A stretch of 64,000 bases of DNA, taken from contig NZ_CP022753.1 of assembly GCF_002263495.1 (NCBI RefSeq), forward strand, positions 682,001 through 746,000, in the 5' to 3' direction. The position numbers and the translations under genes are program-made. The notes beneath the pieces are model-generated. The model was not told the origin of the DNA, did not search any database, and saw only the letters and a list, made by a program, of their open reading frames with translations. Source of the DNA: Nocardiopsis gilva YIM 90087 (GTDB lineage Bacteria > Actinomycetota > Actinomycetes > Streptosporangiales > Streptosporangiaceae). Positions within the stretch are counted from its first letter, which is position 1. Each line of letters starts with the position of its first letter. This document shows, piece after piece, positions 4,550 through 12,445 of the stretch.

Positions 4550-4966
4550 GTGGATAAGAAGCGTCTGCCCTTCACGCTGTACCGCGTGTTGGCGTATGTG
4601 ACGGGTGTTCTCCTGCTGCTGCTGACGTTCGTCGCCATGCCGGCCAAGTACCTGATCGGTGAAGCCGCGCGGTTCTCGCTGGTGGCGGCCCCGGCCGGAA
4701 TGGAGCAGTGGTTCGGAGACGACACCGTGCTGATGAAGCTGGTGGCGCTCCCGCACGGCTACATCTACATGCTCTACGTGCTCGTCGTGGTCTGGCTCGC
4801 CATGGACCGCCGCTGGAGTGCGGGCCGCACGGTCGGCGTGGCCTTGGCCGGAACGATCCCGTTCCTGGGGCTCATCCTGGAGCACCGCCTGGCCAAGGCG
4901 GAGAAAGCCGCGATGGACGCCGAGGCGGCGTCGGCCGGTCAGGAAGCGGCCGCGGCCGAGCGCTGA
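4550..4966 (+). CDS. DUF3817 family integral membrane protein
   Basis: This small membrane protein (138 residues) fits the actinobacterial DUF3817 family, whose function is unknown. I place the start at GTG 4550 because TGAGGTG precedes it and the protein then opens with MDKKRLPFTLYRVLAYV, as in relatives. An upstream GTG would add about 26 proline-rich residues. Three membrane segments are visible at about 10-28, 60-80 and 85-105. The family's histidine is in ALPHGYIYMLYV. The C-terminus is a charged, alanine-rich tail. Its last 28 bp overlap the 3' end of the convergent SURF1 gene. Confidence 0.8.
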   Translation: MDKKRLPFTLYRVLAYVTGVLLLLLTFVAMPAKYLIGEAARFSLVAAPAGMEQWFGDDTVLMKLVALPHGYIYMLYVLVVVWLAMDRRWSAGRTVGVALAGTIPFLGLILEHRLAKAEKAAMDAEAASAGQEAAAAER

Positions 4967-5778
4967 GCCTCGGACTCCGCCTCGCCTCCGTCATCCGCCG
5001 AGCCGTCGCCCCGCTGGCGGTCGGCCCCGACCTCGCGACGCATCAGCGAAACCCAGAACACGATGGCGGCGATACCGAAGATCACCCACTGGGCGGCGTA
5101 GCTGAGGCTCCGCCAGTTCCAGATGATCTCCTTCGGCGGGCTCGGCGGGGGGATCACCTCGGCTTGGGGAGCCGAGGAGGTCGCGGGCGGATCCGCCGGG
5201 TCCTGCTCGGCCATGGTGAGGTACCCCTCGTAGAGCCGGTAGGGCCACTCGTTCACCAGCACGGCCGTGGAGATCCGGTCGATCTGCCCCTCCGGAACCG
5301 TCAACGGGACGTAGCCGTCCTCCGCCGACTGCGGAGGACGCAGCCAGCCGGTGACGGTGACCTTACCCTCGGGCGGAGCGGGCATTTCGTCGACCTTGTC
5401 GACGTCCTCGGCGTGGATCCAGCCACGATTCACCGCGACCGCGACGCCATCGTCCGTGACCAGCGGGAAGACGACGTAGTAGCCTTCCTCCCCATCGGGC
5501 GACAACGCGGGCGCCAACCGCCGCGCGTCGGCGTCGTAGGTGCCGCGAGCGGTGACCGCACGGTTCGCGTCATCGTCGGGCATGTAGTCGCCGGGCTGGA
5601 GGACGGTCTGCAACCGCGCGGCGTCGTCGAGGTCCTGCAGCGGGTTGGTGATCACTTCCCGCGAGGGCTCCTGCGCTCGGACGTACTGCCAATAACCCAG
5701 GCCAAAGCAGGAAACGGCGACGACCACGGCGGCCAGGTGGATGCCGATCCATCGAGGTTGCAACAGCGGGAAACGCAC
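4939..5778 (-). CDS. SURF1 family cytochrome oxidase assembly protein
   Basis: The 279-residue protein has the SURF1/Shy1 layout. A membrane helix at about 12-30 (IGIHLAAVVVAVSCFGLGYWQ) is followed by a large extracytoplasmic domain, a second helix at about 237-256, and a charged cytoplasmic tail. Family signatures include GYWQ, RGTYD, YYVVFPL and VNRGWI. SURF1 helps assemble the haem a site of aa3-type cytochrome c oxidase. A proline-rich stretch lies before the second helix. No oxidase genes are in view. The 3' end overlaps the convergent DUF3817 gene. Confidence 0.9.
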   Translation of the reverse strand: MRFPLLQPRWIGIHLAAVVVAVSCFGLGYWQYVRAQEPSREVITNPLQDLDDAARLQTVLQPGDYMPDDDANRAVTARGTYDADARRLAPALSPDGEEGYYVVFPLVTDDGVAVAVNRGWIHAEDVDKVDEMPAPPEGKVTVTGWLRPPQSAEDGYVPLTVPEGQIDRISTAVLVNEWPYRLYEGYLTMAEQDPADPPATSSAPQAEVIPPPSPPKEIIWNWRSLSYAAQWVIFGIAAIVFWVSLMRREVGADRQRGDGSADDGGEAESEAQRSAAAAS

Positions 5779-5904
5779 CTTCCCAGGTTATGTCCGGCTC
5801 GGCGGGCGGCTGCCATGACCCCCGTTTGACGATCGGCTTGCAACCTTGGTTCGTTGAAGAGCCGCGAGTGGAGATCACTTTAAGTAATTTCCTGTGACTG
5901 AGGG

Positions 5905-5933
5905 TTGTTTAGCCAGGTCGTCGTGGGTAATGT
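5905..5933 (+). promoter_or_regulatory. Candidate promoter of the two-hairpin RNA
   Basis: TTGTTT at 5905-5910 is followed after exactly 17 bases by TAATGT at 5928-5933. This fits a -35 element and an actinobacterial TANNNT -10 element. Transcription would start near 5940 and run into the hairpins and terminator described next. Initiation here is inferred from spacing only. Confidence 0.4.
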
Positions 5934-5941
5934 ACGTACTA

Positions 5942-6083
5942 GCGCGAGAGAGAAATCACTGAAATCGTGCTACGCGAGCTTTCACAGGTCGCGACTCCAG
6001 GGGGGAGGAGTCGGCGACCGTTCCCAAGCGAGGGCCGCCGCCGTGATTTTGAGGGGGGACACGGTGGCGGCCCTCGCATTTTT
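5942..6083 (+). ncRNA. Candidate small RNA or leader with two hairpins with G6 loops, ending in a terminator
   Basis: Two strong hairpins stand in a 414-bp gap. Hairpin 1 pairs 5987-5998 with 6007-6019 (one bulge) around the loop AGGGGGGA. Hairpin 2 pairs 6028-6045 with 6060-6077 (18 pairs, one G-U) around a 14-base loop that also holds GGGGGG, and is followed by ATTTTTG. On the top strand this reads as a promoter, two hairpins and an intrinsic terminator. On the bottom strand both loops are C6 runs, the hallmark of the actinobacterial 6C RNA family, but no T-run follows there. It could be a free sRNA, a leader of the gene at 6193, or a 6C relative on the minus strand. The structure is certain and the transcript is inferred. 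Confidence 0.5.
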
Positions 6084-6192: not shown

Positions 6193-6780
6193 ATGCACGA
6201 CCATCCGGATCTGGGCCCGGCCGCGCGCCGGATGAACGACGTGGTCGCGGGGATCCCCGACGGGAAGCTCTCAGCGCCGACCCCGTGTACCGACACCTCC
6301 GTGGGTGACCTGCTCGACCACGTGATGGGGCTGGCGCTCGGCTTGCGGCGGGCGGCCGAGAAGACCGGGTCGTCTGCGGACGACCCGCCTCCGGCGCCCT
6401 CGGCCGCGAACCTGCCGTCCGACTGGCGCGAGGTCCTGGCCCGGCGGCTCGACGACCTTGCGACAGCGTGGCGGGCCCCCGAGGCCTGGCAGGGCGCCAC
6501 GGAGGCCGGGGGCGTCGAGCTCTCCGGGCAGGAGGCGGGGATCGTCGCTCTGGACGAGCTGGTCCTGCACGGCTGGGACCTTGCCCGCGCCACCGGCCAG
6601 TCCTACGCGTGCGACCCCGCGGACGCCGAGGCCTGCCTCGCCTTCGTGGCGAATGTGCCCGAGGACCCGCAGGCGCGCGAGGGCCTGTTCGGGCCGGTCG
6701 TCGATGTCCCGGAGGGCGCCCCGCTGTTCGACCGCCTTCTCGCACTCAGCGGCCGCGACCCGTCGTGGGCCCCCGCCTAG
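6193..6780 (+). CDS. TIGR03086 / mycothiol-dependent maleylpyruvate isomerase-like protein
   Basis: The 195-residue protein matches the TIGR03086 branch of the DinB/MDMPI helical-bundle family that is abundant in actinobacteria. The N-terminal half has the conserved pattern PTPCTDTSVGDLLDHV, including the histidine that helps bind metal. DELVLHGWDLARATGQ in the second half supplies the HGWDLA motif typical of the family. Some relatives use mycothiol as cofactor, but the reaction of this one is unknown. The start ATG lies behind GAGGAGAGGAG. It is about 110 bp downstream of the terminator of the hairpin RNA. Confidence 0.82.
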   Translation: MHDHPDLGPAARRMNDVVAGIPDGKLSAPTPCTDTSVGDLLDHVMGLALGLRRAAEKTGSSADDPPPAPSAANLPSDWREVLARRLDDLATAWRAPEAWQGATEAGGVELSGQEAGIVALDELVLHGWDLARATGQSYACDPADAEACLAFVANVPEDPQAREGLFGPVVDVPEGAPLFDRLLALSGRDPSWAPA

Positions 6781-9349: not shown

Positions 9350-9612
9350 CCCTCGCGTCGGTGGCCGCCCCTCGCCGCTCCCCGGGAGAGTGGCCGTGTG
9401 TCGGCTGCGGGCGCCAGACGAGCGGGGGAGCGGTGACGTCGGCCCGCAAGCGCGGGTGATCGGTGTGTCGGCCTCATCGGGAGGGACTGTCACCGGCTCG
9501 TCATGGAACGCGAAACGCCCTGTCAAAGCAGGTGTCCATGCTGGTGGGGTGGCCGTCATCCGGTCGTAGGCTGATGCGCGATTCCCAAGGTCCAGGAGAG
9601 TGCCGCGCCGTC

Positions 9613-10341
9613 ATGACACGTGTTCTGCTGATCGAAGACGACACCGCCGTGCAGAAGGGGGTGACGCTCGCGCTGCGCCGACGCGGTCATGAGATCGAGG
9701 TGGCCGGCAGCGGGGAGGCCGGGCTGCCCGCACTCCAGCGGTTCGAACCCGAGCTCGTCCTGCTGGACCTGATGCTGCCGGGCATGAGCGGGCTGGAGGT
9801 CTGCCGCCGTATCCGGGAGGAGCGGCAGGTGCCGATCATCATTCTCTCCGCCCGCGGCGATGACATCGACATGGTGGTCGGCCTGGAGGCCGGTGCCGAT
9901 GACTACGTCGTGAAACCGGCCAGCGGGGAGGTGCTGGAGGCGCGCATGCGCGCCGTCTTGCGGCGCGTGGTCCCGCAGCGGGCGACGGCGGAGGGGGATG
10001 TGGACGCGGGCGCCGTGTCGGCGCCGCAGGTGGAGACACAGGTGGAGACACACGGCGCGCTGGCCATTGATCGGGCGGGGCTGCTGGTCTCCAAGGCGGG
10101 CGCGGAGGTCGTGCTCGCGCCGTCCGAGCTCAAGTTGCTGCTGTTCCTGTCCGCCGCGCCCGGCCAGGTCTTCAGCCGTCAGCAGCTCCTCGAACAGGTC
10201 TGGGAGCACAGCTTCTACGGCGACGCGCGCCTGGTCGACGCGTGCGTCATGCGGTTGCGGGCCAAGATCGAGGATGATCCGCGCTCGCCCAGCTACGTGC
10301 AGACCGTTCGGGGTTTCGGCTACCGGTTCGGGCCGCTGTGA
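9613..10341 (+). CDS. OmpR/PhoB family response regulator
   Basis: The 242-residue protein has a receiver domain (acidic pair ED at residues 8-10, phosphoacceptor Asp near 53 in LVLLDLMLPG, conserved Lys in VVKPAS) and a C-terminal winged helix (about 155-240). A linker of about 35 residues with the internal repeat QVETQVET lies between them. I start at ATG 9613, where MTRVLLIEDD begins the fold. The stop overlaps the GTG of the kinase gene by 4 bp. Together with the kinase and the lipoprotein this is a three-gene signalling operon. The signal and targets are unknown. Confidence 0.93.
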   Translation: MTRVLLIEDDTAVQKGVTLALRRRGHEIEVAGSGEAGLPALQRFEPELVLLDLMLPGMSGLEVCRRIREERQVPIIILSARGDDIDMVVGLEAGADDYVVKPASGEVLEARMRAVLRRVVPQRATAEGDVDAGAVSAPQVETQVETHGALAIDRAGLLVSKAGAEVVLAPSELKLLLFLSAAPGQVFSRQQLLEQVWEHSFYGDARLVDACVMRLRAKIEDDPRSPSYVQTVRGFGYRFGPL

Positions 10342-11894
10342 CCGCGATCCCGCGTCCGCCGCGGCGCCTGGCCGGGTGGGTAGCGCAGCGCTGGGGGCTG
10401 CGACCGCGGTTGGTCGTGGGGTTTCTCGTCGTCGCCGTCCTCAGTGCCCTGCTCACCGCCACCGTCACCTTCCGCCAGGCGCGCGGCGCGATCCTGGAGC
10501 GCTCGCAGGAAGCCGCCGTCAACGACCTGCGCACGCAGGTCGACTCTCTGGGTCCCGACCTCGTCGTCCCGCCGCAGGAGGAGGACCTGCGCGACTTCGC
10601 GCTGCGGCTGGAACAGGCCGGAGGCTCGCACCCCTGGCGCGTCTCCGTTTCGTATGCGGACGGGCCGATCATCCCCGGTCCCCCGAAGGGAGAGCAAGGC
10701 AGCGCCCTCGCCTCGCTGCGCGCGGCCGTCGGCGACCGGCGCTCAACCGTCTACCAGCGGGTGGACCGCGACGGCGACCCTCGGCTCGTCATCGCGATGC
10801 CGGTGGACTTCGCCGATGGCGGCACGCCCTCCGGCGTCGTGGTCTACGCCGACATGTCGCTGAGCGACGAGCGCGACGATATCGCCGCGCTGGTCACCGC
10901 CGCTCAGGTCGGCGCGGTGCCCGCGCTCGTGCTCGCCCTCGTCCCGGCGCTCATCGCCGCCCGCCGGGTGCTGCTCCCCGTGCGACGGCTCCAAGAGGCC
11001 GCCGAGCGGATCACCTCCGGCGAACTCGACACCCGCCTTCCCGTCTCGGGCAGCGACGAACTCGCCGACCTCACCCGCACCTTCAACACCATGGCCGCCG
11101 CCCTGGAGTCGAGCGACACCGAACTGCGCCGAATGGAGGCCAACGCCCGACGCTTCGCCGCCGATGTCTCACACGAGCTGCGCACCCCGCTCTCCGCGAT
11201 GACCGCGGTCACCGGAGTCCTGGATGAGGAGGTCGAGCGACTCGACCCCGACACCGCCGACGCGGTCCAGCTCATCAGCCAGGAGACCGCCAAACTGGCC
11301 CGCATGGTCGAGGACCTCATGGAGATCTCCCGCTTCGACGCCGGAGCGGCCGCCCTCCAGCTCGACGAGGTCGATGTCGCCACGGCTGTCCGCAAGACGC
11401 TGCGGCTCAGAGGGTGGGACGACCAGGTCGAGGCGGAGCTGCCCGAGGGACTGCGGGCGCGCCTGGACCCCCGCCGTATCGACGTCGTCCTGGCCAACCT
11501 GATCAGCAACGCGCTGCGGCACGGCGGCGCTCCGGTCCGGCTGCGCGCCTGGGCTGAGGGGGGACGGCTGCTCATCGACGTCGCGGACGACGGTCCCGGC
11601 ATCGACCCCGAAGCCCTCCCGCACGTCTTCGACCGCTTCTACAAGGCCGACGCCGCACGCGCCCGCTCCGAGGGCAGCGGCCTGGGACTGGCCATCGCGA
11701 TGGAGAACACGCGGTTGCACCACGGCACGCTGACCGCCGCTAACGCGCCTGAAGGCGGGGCCGTGTTCACCGTCTCCCTCCCGGTCGATCCCGACGAGGG
11801 TGGCGGTAGGGAGGGCGCGCCGGACGGTGCCGGTCGCCGCGACGGTTCCGATGGTCCCGCGGATCCCGGCGGTATGTCCGGGGGGCCGATGTGA
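10338..11894 (+). CDS. Two-component sensor histidine kinase
   Basis: The 518-residue kinase has a first membrane helix at about 24-44, an extracytoplasmic sensor region to about 190, and a second helix at about 192-214. It continues with a HAMP linker, a HisKA domain with the phosphoacceptor in DVSHELRTPLSAM (His near 278), and a HATPase domain with N (NLISNALRHGG), G1 (DVADDGPGI) and G2 (GSGLGLAIA) boxes. The C-terminal 40 residues are Gly/Asp-rich and may be disordered. It starts with GTG inside the regulator's stop and its own stop overlaps the lipoprotein GTG. Translation of all three genes is therefore coupled. Confidence 0.93.
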   Translation: MTAIPRPPRRLAGWVAQRWGLRPRLVVGFLVVAVLSALLTATVTFRQARGAILERSQEAAVNDLRTQVDSLGPDLVVPPQEEDLRDFALRLEQAGGSHPWRVSVSYADGPIIPGPPKGEQGSALASLRAAVGDRRSTVYQRVDRDGDPRLVIAMPVDFADGGTPSGVVVYADMSLSDERDDIAALVTAAQVGAVPALVLALVPALIAARRVLLPVRRLQEAAERITSGELDTRLPVSGSDELADLTRTFNTMAAALESSDTELRRMEANARRFAADVSHELRTPLSAMTAVTGVLDEEVERLDPDTADAVQLISQETAKLARMVEDLMEISRFDAGAAALQLDEVDVATAVRKTLRLRGWDDQVEAELPEGLRARLDPRRIDVVLANLISNALRHGGAPVRLRAWAEGGRLLIDVADDGPGIDPEALPHVFDRFYKADAARARSEGSGLGLAIAMENTRLHHGTLTAANAPEGGAVFTVSLPVDPDEGGGREGAPDGAGRRDGSDGPADPGGMSGGPM

Positions 11895-12445
11895 TCCGAC
11901 CGACCCGTCCGCGCGGTCGCGCCGCGACCGCGCTCGCGCTCGCGCTCCTCGCGCTCGCAGGATGCGGTATCCCACCGACCGACCCCGGCGTGGCCGGTGG
12001 CCCCGCGCGGGGCATCCAGCGGCCGGGCGCGGACAGCCACACCGCCCGCCTCATCTTCGTCGGTTCGTCGGGTCCCCAGGCGGTCGCACGACCAGTCGAG
12101 GGCCCGGTCGATGCGCGGGAGGCCATGGACCTGCTCCTGGACGGCCCCTCCGCCGCCGAGCGGGAACGCGGGCTGTTCACCGAGGTGCCGCCCATGAGCG
12201 GTGGCGTTCGCGTCACCGCCACTGAGGGAGCGGTCGACGTCTACATCCCGATGAAGGCGTCCGCGCTGCCGGTGGCGGCGGTCAGCCAGCTCGTCTGCAC
12301 CGCCGCCAACGCCGACATCCCCGGGGACCGCCCGCCTGCGGAGGTCGACGTCCGCATCTTCGAAGAGAAGCGGTACCCCTGGCAGCTGCGCTGTGGCGAC
12401 TCCGGCAACGCCTATCCCACCGGCGGCTCCGACGGGCCCGACTGA
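11891..12445 (+). CDS. GerMN-like lipoprotein linked to a two-component system
   Basis: The 184-residue protein has an Arg-rich N-terminus, a hydrophobic stretch and the lipobox LALAGC, so it should be anchored outside the membrane at that Cys. The rest (MDLLLDGPSAAERERGLFTEVPP, then VDVYIPMKASALPVAAVSQLVCTAA) resembles a GerMN domain, which binds other proteins in sporulation and cell-envelope systems. Lipoproteins next to kinases, such as LpqB with MtrAB or CseA with CseBC, tune the kinase. A similar role is inferred here from the 4-bp overlap with the kinase gene. It is much shorter than LpqB. Confidence 0.75.
   Translation: MIRPTRPRGRAATALALALLALAGCGIPPTDPGVAGGPARGIQRPGADSHTARLIFVGSSGPQAVARPVEGPVDAREAMDLLLDGPSAAERERGLFTEVPPMSGGVRVTATEGAVDVYIPMKASALPVAAVSQLVCTAANADIPGDRPPAEVDVRIFEEKRYPWQLRCGDSGNAYPTGGSDGPD

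Follow-up and report, generated by a model that had tools for sequence, protein, structure and literature searches.

The window analysed here (the whole stretch of 64,000 nucleotides from Nocardiopsis gilva YIM 90087) carries, between a divergent SURF1 gene and a gene with a mycothiol maleylpyruvate isomerase N-terminal domain (MDMPI_N), an ordered series of elements on the plus strand from 5875 to 6083: the palindromic element TCACTTTAAGTAA, a GTGAC word, the promoter-like pair TTGTTT-17-TAATGT and a region resembling an RNA of three hairpins, here called the G-loop RNA because two of its loops hold runs of six G.

Organization of the locus and its upstream elements

The features are listed below by their positions in the window.

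4939 to 5778, minus strand: SURF1 gene, divergent neighbour (Pfam SURF1, 7.6e-32)
5875 to 5887, no strand assigned: candidate upstream operator, conserved, with the palindromic core ACTTTAAGT at 5877 to 5885
5894 to 5898, plus strand: GTGAC word between operator and -35 element, largely conserved in alignments of relatives
5905 to 5910, plus strand: -35 element TTGTTT (TTGTY in 57 of 57 distinct sequences)
5928 to 5933, plus strand: -10 element TAATGT (TANNNT in 57 of 57 distinct sequences), 17 bases from the -35 element
5940 to 6083, plus strand: putative small RNA of about 140 to 145 nt, its start placed from the position of the -10 element
5940 to 5972, plus strand: possible variable 5' hairpin (weak evidence)
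5987 to 6019, plus strand: hairpin 1, 12 pairs, loop AGGGGGGA at 5999 to 6006, z -4.9
6020 to 6027, plus strand: linker GTTCCCAA, mostly conserved as TTCCC, absent in the remote homologue G060
6028 to 6077, plus strand: hairpin 2, 18 pairs in the alignment model, loop holding TTTTGAGGGGGGA at 6047 to 6059, z -9.16
6079 to 6083, plus strand: T5 tail, not conserved in many Nocardiopsis copies
6193 to 6780, plus strand: downstream gene with the MDMPI_N domain (Pfam MDMPI_N, 6.7e-13), outside the unit

A preliminary description of this DNA had proposed the promoter and the two G6 hairpins; the variable 5' hairpin, the conserved palindrome at 5877 to 5885 and the conservation of the unit were not part of it. 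The promoter is as described there, and its two elements recur in all 57 distinct sequences compared (the stretches from the pattern scan reported below, the window and further genomes of the family), with a spacing of 17 bases in 53 and of 18 in four, window included. Such a conserved promoter of its own is what is expected of an independent bacterial sRNA gene. In a strict sigma-70 consensus scan the window's copy of the promoter did not pass.

The core of the upstream palindrome was found in 56 of the 57 distinct sequences, the remaining one reading ACTTTACGT, while the operator of the remote homologue G060 reads TCACTTTCAGTAA. In the window this palindrome fits the BldD box, for which the consensus TNAC-N5-GTNA is given in PMC4151990, and orthologues of BldD are reported in most complex actinomycetes (PMC4255298). 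The strict box occurs in only 25 of the 57 sequences, the window included, because many Nocardiopsis carry G at the last position. Moreover, the conserved centre of the palindrome, TTTAA, is no part of the BldD requirement, so that BldD can be named as a candidate regulator only, on the partial fit to its box. An exact ACTTAAAGT, accompanied by TTACTTTTAGTGA, is found in the window's genome before a subtilisin-inhibitor-like gene as well (PF00720; C1 about 3904029, positions 1480 to 1550 of locus L089), which may be a second member of the same regulon as the G-loop RNA. Other matches to the operator word in this genome gave no lead, the Pfam assignments among the frames tried being an aldehyde dehydrogenase and a TPR protein.

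The SURF1 gene was upstream, divergent and adjacent in all 73 homologous loci (some genomes counted twice). The MDMPI_N gene was beside none of these 73, in flanking DNA that is short on that side in several of them. Thus, with SURF1 divergent everywhere and the downstream gene never repeated, the unit looks like a stand-alone gene. Farther along the window, at 9463 to 12445, the list of open reading frames shows consecutive frames that resemble a response regulator, a sensor kinase and a small lipoprotein.

Structure, conservation and distribution of the G-loop RNA

The segment from 5942 to 6083 (142 nt) folds at -75.9 kcal/mol, compared with a mean of -53.0 kcal/mol for shuffled sequences, none of 200 of which was as low (z -5.85). 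The G6 runs, at 6000 to 6005 and 6053 to 6058, each lie in the loop of a strong hairpin, which bears out the earlier proposal of two stable stems (z -4.9 for 5987 to 6019 and -9.2 for 6028 to 6077). Runs of G6 or C6 are about five-fold depleted in the window, with 22 seen and 119.5 expected from dinucleotide shuffles, and two G6 runs within 60 bases are therefore not an accident of composition. In the 5' domain at least five pairs folded in all 57 distinct sequences, and the z scores against mononucleotide shuffles averaged -1.7, with 44 of the 57 below -1. Hairpin 2 is the probable terminator. As to the T5 terminator proposed earlier, the five T residues are present at 6079 to 6083 in the window, but this run is not a conserved feature; many copies in Nocardiopsis end in CACCTCGT or similar instead, and a strict terminator scan with loops limited to 3 to 8 bases found none.

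The comparison of this gap in related genomes, which the preliminary description had suggested, found stems that covary around fixed loops. Over 28 stem pairs and 54 distinct rows, 99.3% of the cells were paired (39.5 to 52.5% in slid controls) and 86 cells had changes on both sides, compared with a shuffle mean of 27.8. Compensatory change of this kind, as expected of an independent bacterial sRNA gene, affected seven of the 28 pairs, a number equalled in 11 of 500 shuffles; the covariation score was reached by none of the 500 and the number of pair types by 34. Among the 10 modelled pairs of hairpin 1 a single one changed on both sides, with none in the inner stem, and six of the 18 pairs of hairpin 2 did so; the structural support thus comes mostly from hairpin 2. 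In the RNAalifold structure of 32 pairs, G-U or U-G occupied 263 cells and A-C two; of these 263 cells, the 28 stem pairs account for 82, and the others fall in four inner pairs that possibly belong to a loop. Because these G-U pairs would be A-C mismatches on the minus strand, and considering the compensation and the fold energies of the alignment (-59.7 kcal/mol on the plus and -19.7 kcal/mol on the minus strand), the structured strand is the plus strand. Besides, the loops are separated by a distance that differs by single bases among the copies (match spans of 64 to 69 nt), which speaks against a reading frame.

The loop word GGGGGGA is constant, in contrast to the stems, in which compensatory changes and G-U pairs occur. 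Loop 1 is NGGGGGGA and loop 2 holds GAGGGGGGA; among 55 aligned copies variation in the loops is limited to outer columns and GAGGGGGGA is invariant, an invariance that is biased, as these copies came through a pattern demanding the G runs. GGGGGGA was likewise present in both loops of all 36 copies that were found by similarity or by model without requiring the word and were then read, in three separate sets of 23, one (G060) and 12. Loss of the stems and of the G6 runs, looked for in close relatives, was not observed.

When 100 genomes of the window's GTDB family were searched at the DNA level, 59 matches reached E 0.01; those at E about 1e-15 or better came from the window's genome and 22 others, and the remainder were short, at E about 1e-5 or weaker. 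In more distant relatives conservation covers about 5870 to about 6083, from the operator to the terminator stem. A pattern scan requiring both loops, carried out on one genome per species (84,980 species), returned 52 stretches, 50 of which belong to Nocardiopsis, Streptomonospora, Thermobifida, Marinactinospora, Actinorugispora, Murinocardiopsis, Marinitenerispora, Allosalinactinospora, records titled Nocardiopsaceae or Actinomycetes bacterium, and one record titled Glycomyces fuscus. The matches in a Deltaproteobacteria MAG (L041) and in Sorangium (L042) showed by eye no operator, promoter or hairpin layout and were set aside as chance.

A covariance model built from 55 of the 57 distinct sequences (L070 and L074, cut by the ends of their loci, were omitted) matched 43 of 200 genomes of the family at E 0.01, 42 of them with at least 68.6 bits; a match in G092 (31.2 bits), whose sequence on reading has no G6 loops, was judged to be chance. 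Among 394 genomes of the class, 23 matched, all of them in the window's own GTDB family; strict filters were used in both model searches, and remote copies may have been missed. The most remote copy, in G060, keeps the operator, the promoter and both loops with stems that, by eye, have been exchanged. When a counterpart beside SURF1 was sought elsewhere in the family with simple patterns (28 loci, in 21 of 26 genomes), a BldD-type box accompanied by two G6 runs was found only in G060. Separately, a 26-base stretch identical to the 3' end of hairpin 2 occurs in a genome of the same genus about 3.7 kb from the gene (G021:C1:4734619-4734644; positions 620 to 645 of locus L108).

No Rfam family matched at its gathering threshold anywhere in the window, and in the literature, of which the sources were available in part, no report of a G-loop RNA was found for Nocardiopsis, Streptomonospora or Thermobifida. 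Judging from its sequence, the G-loop RNA is apparently a real sRNA family that is undescribed and absent from Rfam 15.

Relationship with the 6C RNA

In its general design the G-loop RNA resembles 6C RNA (RF01066) and B11, which we take to be the mycobacterial 6C-type RNA: both are short intergenic actinobacterial RNAs with two hairpins, six-base homopolymer loops and a terminator-like second hairpin. However, 6C carries C6 loops on its structured strand and lies upstream of a ParA-like gene, whereas here the structured strand, assigned to plus by the pair statistics and the promoter, carries G6 loops, the constant neighbour is SURF1, and the family was confined to one GTDB family in the samples searched. 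The Rfam 6C model, run on the locus as had been suggested, gave at best 24 bits, on the minus strand at hairpin 2 and well under the cut-off of 47. With the plus strand structured and the genome's 6C located elsewhere, the idea of an unusual 6C copy is rejected. The absence of a ParA-like or septum-site context had been recognised correctly, and such a gene stands beside the genome's own 6C. The latter (C1:616025-616096) scores 44.5 bits, just below the cut-off, has the loops ACCCCCCG and UCCCCCG, and precedes a ParA-like gene (a weak Pfam ParA match, 20.5 bits against a cut-off of 27.1); a gene for a type II/IV secretion ATPase comes next, which makes the arrangement TadZ-like.

Most of the bearers of the G-loop RNA that were examined also carry 6C. 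Of 24 such genomes, 21 gave a 6C match with an E value of 6e-4 or lower; G043 and G046 gave weak matches only and G087 none. At 30 named loci, some from the same genomes, the ParA-like gene was present in 29 and two C runs stood there in 24 (21 by script and three by the list of runs), with one locus that could not be judged. No 6C scored above the cut-off in 13 Nocardiopsis genomes and G043, yet twin C runs precede the ParA-like gene in 11 of these 14, all but N. xinjiangensis, N. kunsanensis and G043; in G043 the usual ParA-like neighbour was not found either. The Rfam model would thus miss the 6C RNAs of Nocardiopsis (none of the 13 genomes above cut-off, 11 of the 13 with twin C runs), several of which seem to have acquired an outer helix, GAGCGG...CCGCTC, closing both hairpins.

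Four species, N. salina, N. coralli, N. xinjiangensis and N. kunsanensis, have no 6C at the usual locus, where the intergenic region is complete, and for N. xinjiangensis (G133) and N. kunsanensis (G192) there was no 6C match in the whole genome at E 1. These species are monophyletic in a tree of the neighbour gene (support 0.999) and keep intact G loops, with nine of 116 columns variable and none of these among the 23 loop columns, where about 1.8 would be expected by chance. The G loops have therefore outlived the local 6C, over a time since loss that may be too short to settle another function. The stretch GATCATGCGACCTGTCTTCTGTGC at the 6C-less locus is identical in all four species.

Concerning the fit between the two RNAs, the G6 loops were complementary to the C-run loops of 6C in all 15 genomes read, each 6C having C runs in both loops. 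Duplexes of -50 to -68 kcal/mol were predicted for seven of the fifteen genome pairs, and the duplex energy was below the mean of stem-shuffled controls in all 15 genomes for both hairpins; 26 or fewer of 500 shuffles were as low in four of the 15 for hairpin 1 and in two for hairpin 2. Predicted pairing beyond the loops is hence only weakly better than in these controls. In the same 15 genomes, matched pairs did no better than exchanged ones in a test of co-variation with 6C (mean residual +0.68 and permutation p 0.86 for hairpin 1; mean residual +0.05 and p 0.54 for hairpin 2), a test to which the loops are too invariant to contribute. Given the weak gain over the controls and the lack of gain of matched over exchanged pairs, our claim is limited to loop complementarity. 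An origin of the G-loop RNA as an antisense of 6C hairpin 1, or extended pairing with it, was not established by the stem-shuffled controls or by species permutation, and the roughly four-fifths identity, by eye, of hairpin 1 to the reverse complement of 6C hairpin 1 is a hint only. Of the earlier suggestion of a G-loop RNA able to pair with 6C loops, the G-loop RNA itself is supported and the pairing is plausible, loop complementarity and wide co-occurrence speaking for it. Where both genes are on one contig they lie 37 to 72 kb apart in 13 of 14 genomes, a distance that may be plain synteny, and about 395 kb apart in G072.

These observations bear on a reading of the G-loop RNA as a dedicated antagonist of 6C, which would do nothing other than titrate it by kissing loops and might open into a longer duplex, conceivable given the partial antisense match of hairpin 1 to 6C hairpin 1. 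The complementarity of the loops in every pair read, the seven strong predicted duplexes, the presence of 6C in most bearers and the distance kept between the genes would all suit it. Nevertheless, the intact G loops in the Nocardiopsis clade without 6C at the locus, the lack of co-variation and the distance in G072 argue against it, and we consider this reading possible but doubtful.

Proposed role and significance

We lean, by a little, towards a broader reading, in which the G-loop RNA is a stand-alone, trans-acting sRNA with two redundant G6 seed loops directed at C-tracts, 6C being the first candidate partner, for which it would act as a decoy. This reading builds on features described above (the conservation of the unit, its strand and structure, its invariant loops, their complementarity to 6C and the frequent presence of both RNAs in one genome), and from these we infer transcription, regulation, base pairing and effect. 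In the proposed mechanism, the conserved promoter beside SURF1 would drive transcription under the control of a regulator binding the palindrome, for which a BldD-like developmental repressor is a candidate. The resulting RNA would present its G6 loops, as predicted from the sequence, on two stable hairpins, and the loops would pair with C-tracts (UCCCCCC) in other RNAs, 6C first, although C-tract RNAs other than 6C may also be bound. Either 6C would be titrated by the decoy, relieving its targets, or mRNAs with C-tracts would be controlled directly.

Published work makes a decoy for 6C plausible, as a 6C-type RNA has been reported to bind a G6 tract: in M. abscessus one C loop of B11, whichever of the two, is enough for repression of a gene whose leader carries six consecutive G, and repression of this gene was restored by a compensatory mutation (PMC10470900). 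In S. coelicolor 6C is reported to rise during sporulation (PMC4046766), which would fit a developmental operator, and a 6C mutant is described as lacking a phenotype or physiological effect (personal communication cited in PMC8539372). The absence of co-variation and the four species without a local 6C speak against 6C as the only function. A search for other partners with the 10-base complement of loop 2, TCCCCCCTCA, gave seven, nine and seven sites in three genomes, compared with seven, four and six for the reversed control, so that the sites were not clearly in excess; these sites shared no target gene among the three genomes, and blastn of the loci gave only the G-loop RNA locus in common.

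The same lack of a conserved mRNA target for the loop-2 complement in three genomes would be expected if the GGA-containing loops were sites for an RNA-binding protein, in the manner of CsrB-type RNAs, and base pairing had no role. Two spaced GGA loops, under tighter conservation than a single pairing partner would seem to require, point the same way. However, six G residues exceed the needs of a GGA site and CsrA is not known from most actinobacteria, so that we regard a protein-binding RNA as rather improbable. A cis-acting leader or shared terminator of the neighbouring genes, without an independent RNA, is suggested by the position between SURF1 and the next gene and by the terminator-like hairpin 2, and is very improbable considering that SURF1 is divergent, that the MDMPI_N gene recurs at none of the 73 loci and that the promoter is separate and conserved. 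A 6C copy read from the minus strand, to which the 24 bits of hairpin 2 in the 6C model and the C6 loops of that strand might point, is scarcely credible in view of a score below the cut-off, 82 stem G-U cells that would become A-C mismatches, a minus-strand alignment fold of -19.7 against -59.7 kcal/mol, the conserved plus-strand promoter and the genome's 6C elsewhere.

sRNA sponges and decoys are a general class in other bacteria. The G-loop RNA, read as a trans-acting sRNA with 6C as its first candidate partner, would resemble them in mimicking a site bound by a regulatory RNA, namely a G6 tract such as that of the eccB4 leader reported to be bound by B11 (PMC10470900), and its loops are complementary to the 6C seed in the 15 genomes read. 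The expectation that a sponge occurs only where its partner does holds for most bearers examined; unlike known sponges, it has a supposed partner that is missing from the usual locus in four Nocardiopsis bearers, and its decoy role is a proposal. The ctRNA_pGA1 family (RF00236), a plasmid copy-control antisense RNA, shares the GC-rich terminator-like hairpin with a U tail, and its model scored the plus strand at 25.3 bits, short of the cut-off of 45; moreover, the present locus lies beside SURF1 in a single contig of 6.14 Mb.

Gram-positive bacteria are well known to have sRNAs with C loops that bind G-rich sites. A conserved RNA of the reverse, G-loop design did not turn up in the literature searched. 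The Streptomyces hairpin RNAs scr5583 and scr1434 also have a strongly biased loop, with changes of expression in development, and are set apart, by the description available in PMC3765725, by loops that are C-rich and by their genus.

A more specific proposal, which we put forward tentatively and consider unlikely to hold in full, is a natural mirror-image pair of regulatory RNAs, in which the C6-loop repressor 6C would be matched by a G6-loop RNA that is particular to this lineage and controlled in development by a BldD-type, c-di-GMP-linked regulator. This RNA would capture 6C through two kissing loops at once and would thereby set the time at which 6C targets are released in sporulation. 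If the G-loop RNA does bind 6C, a widespread actinobacterial RNA would have a natural antagonist open to testing, which could also serve to find the role of 6C; if it does not, the fixed G6 loops remain a clear puzzle. Either way, the G-loop RNA is a family missing from Rfam 15 that offers an easy experimental entry.
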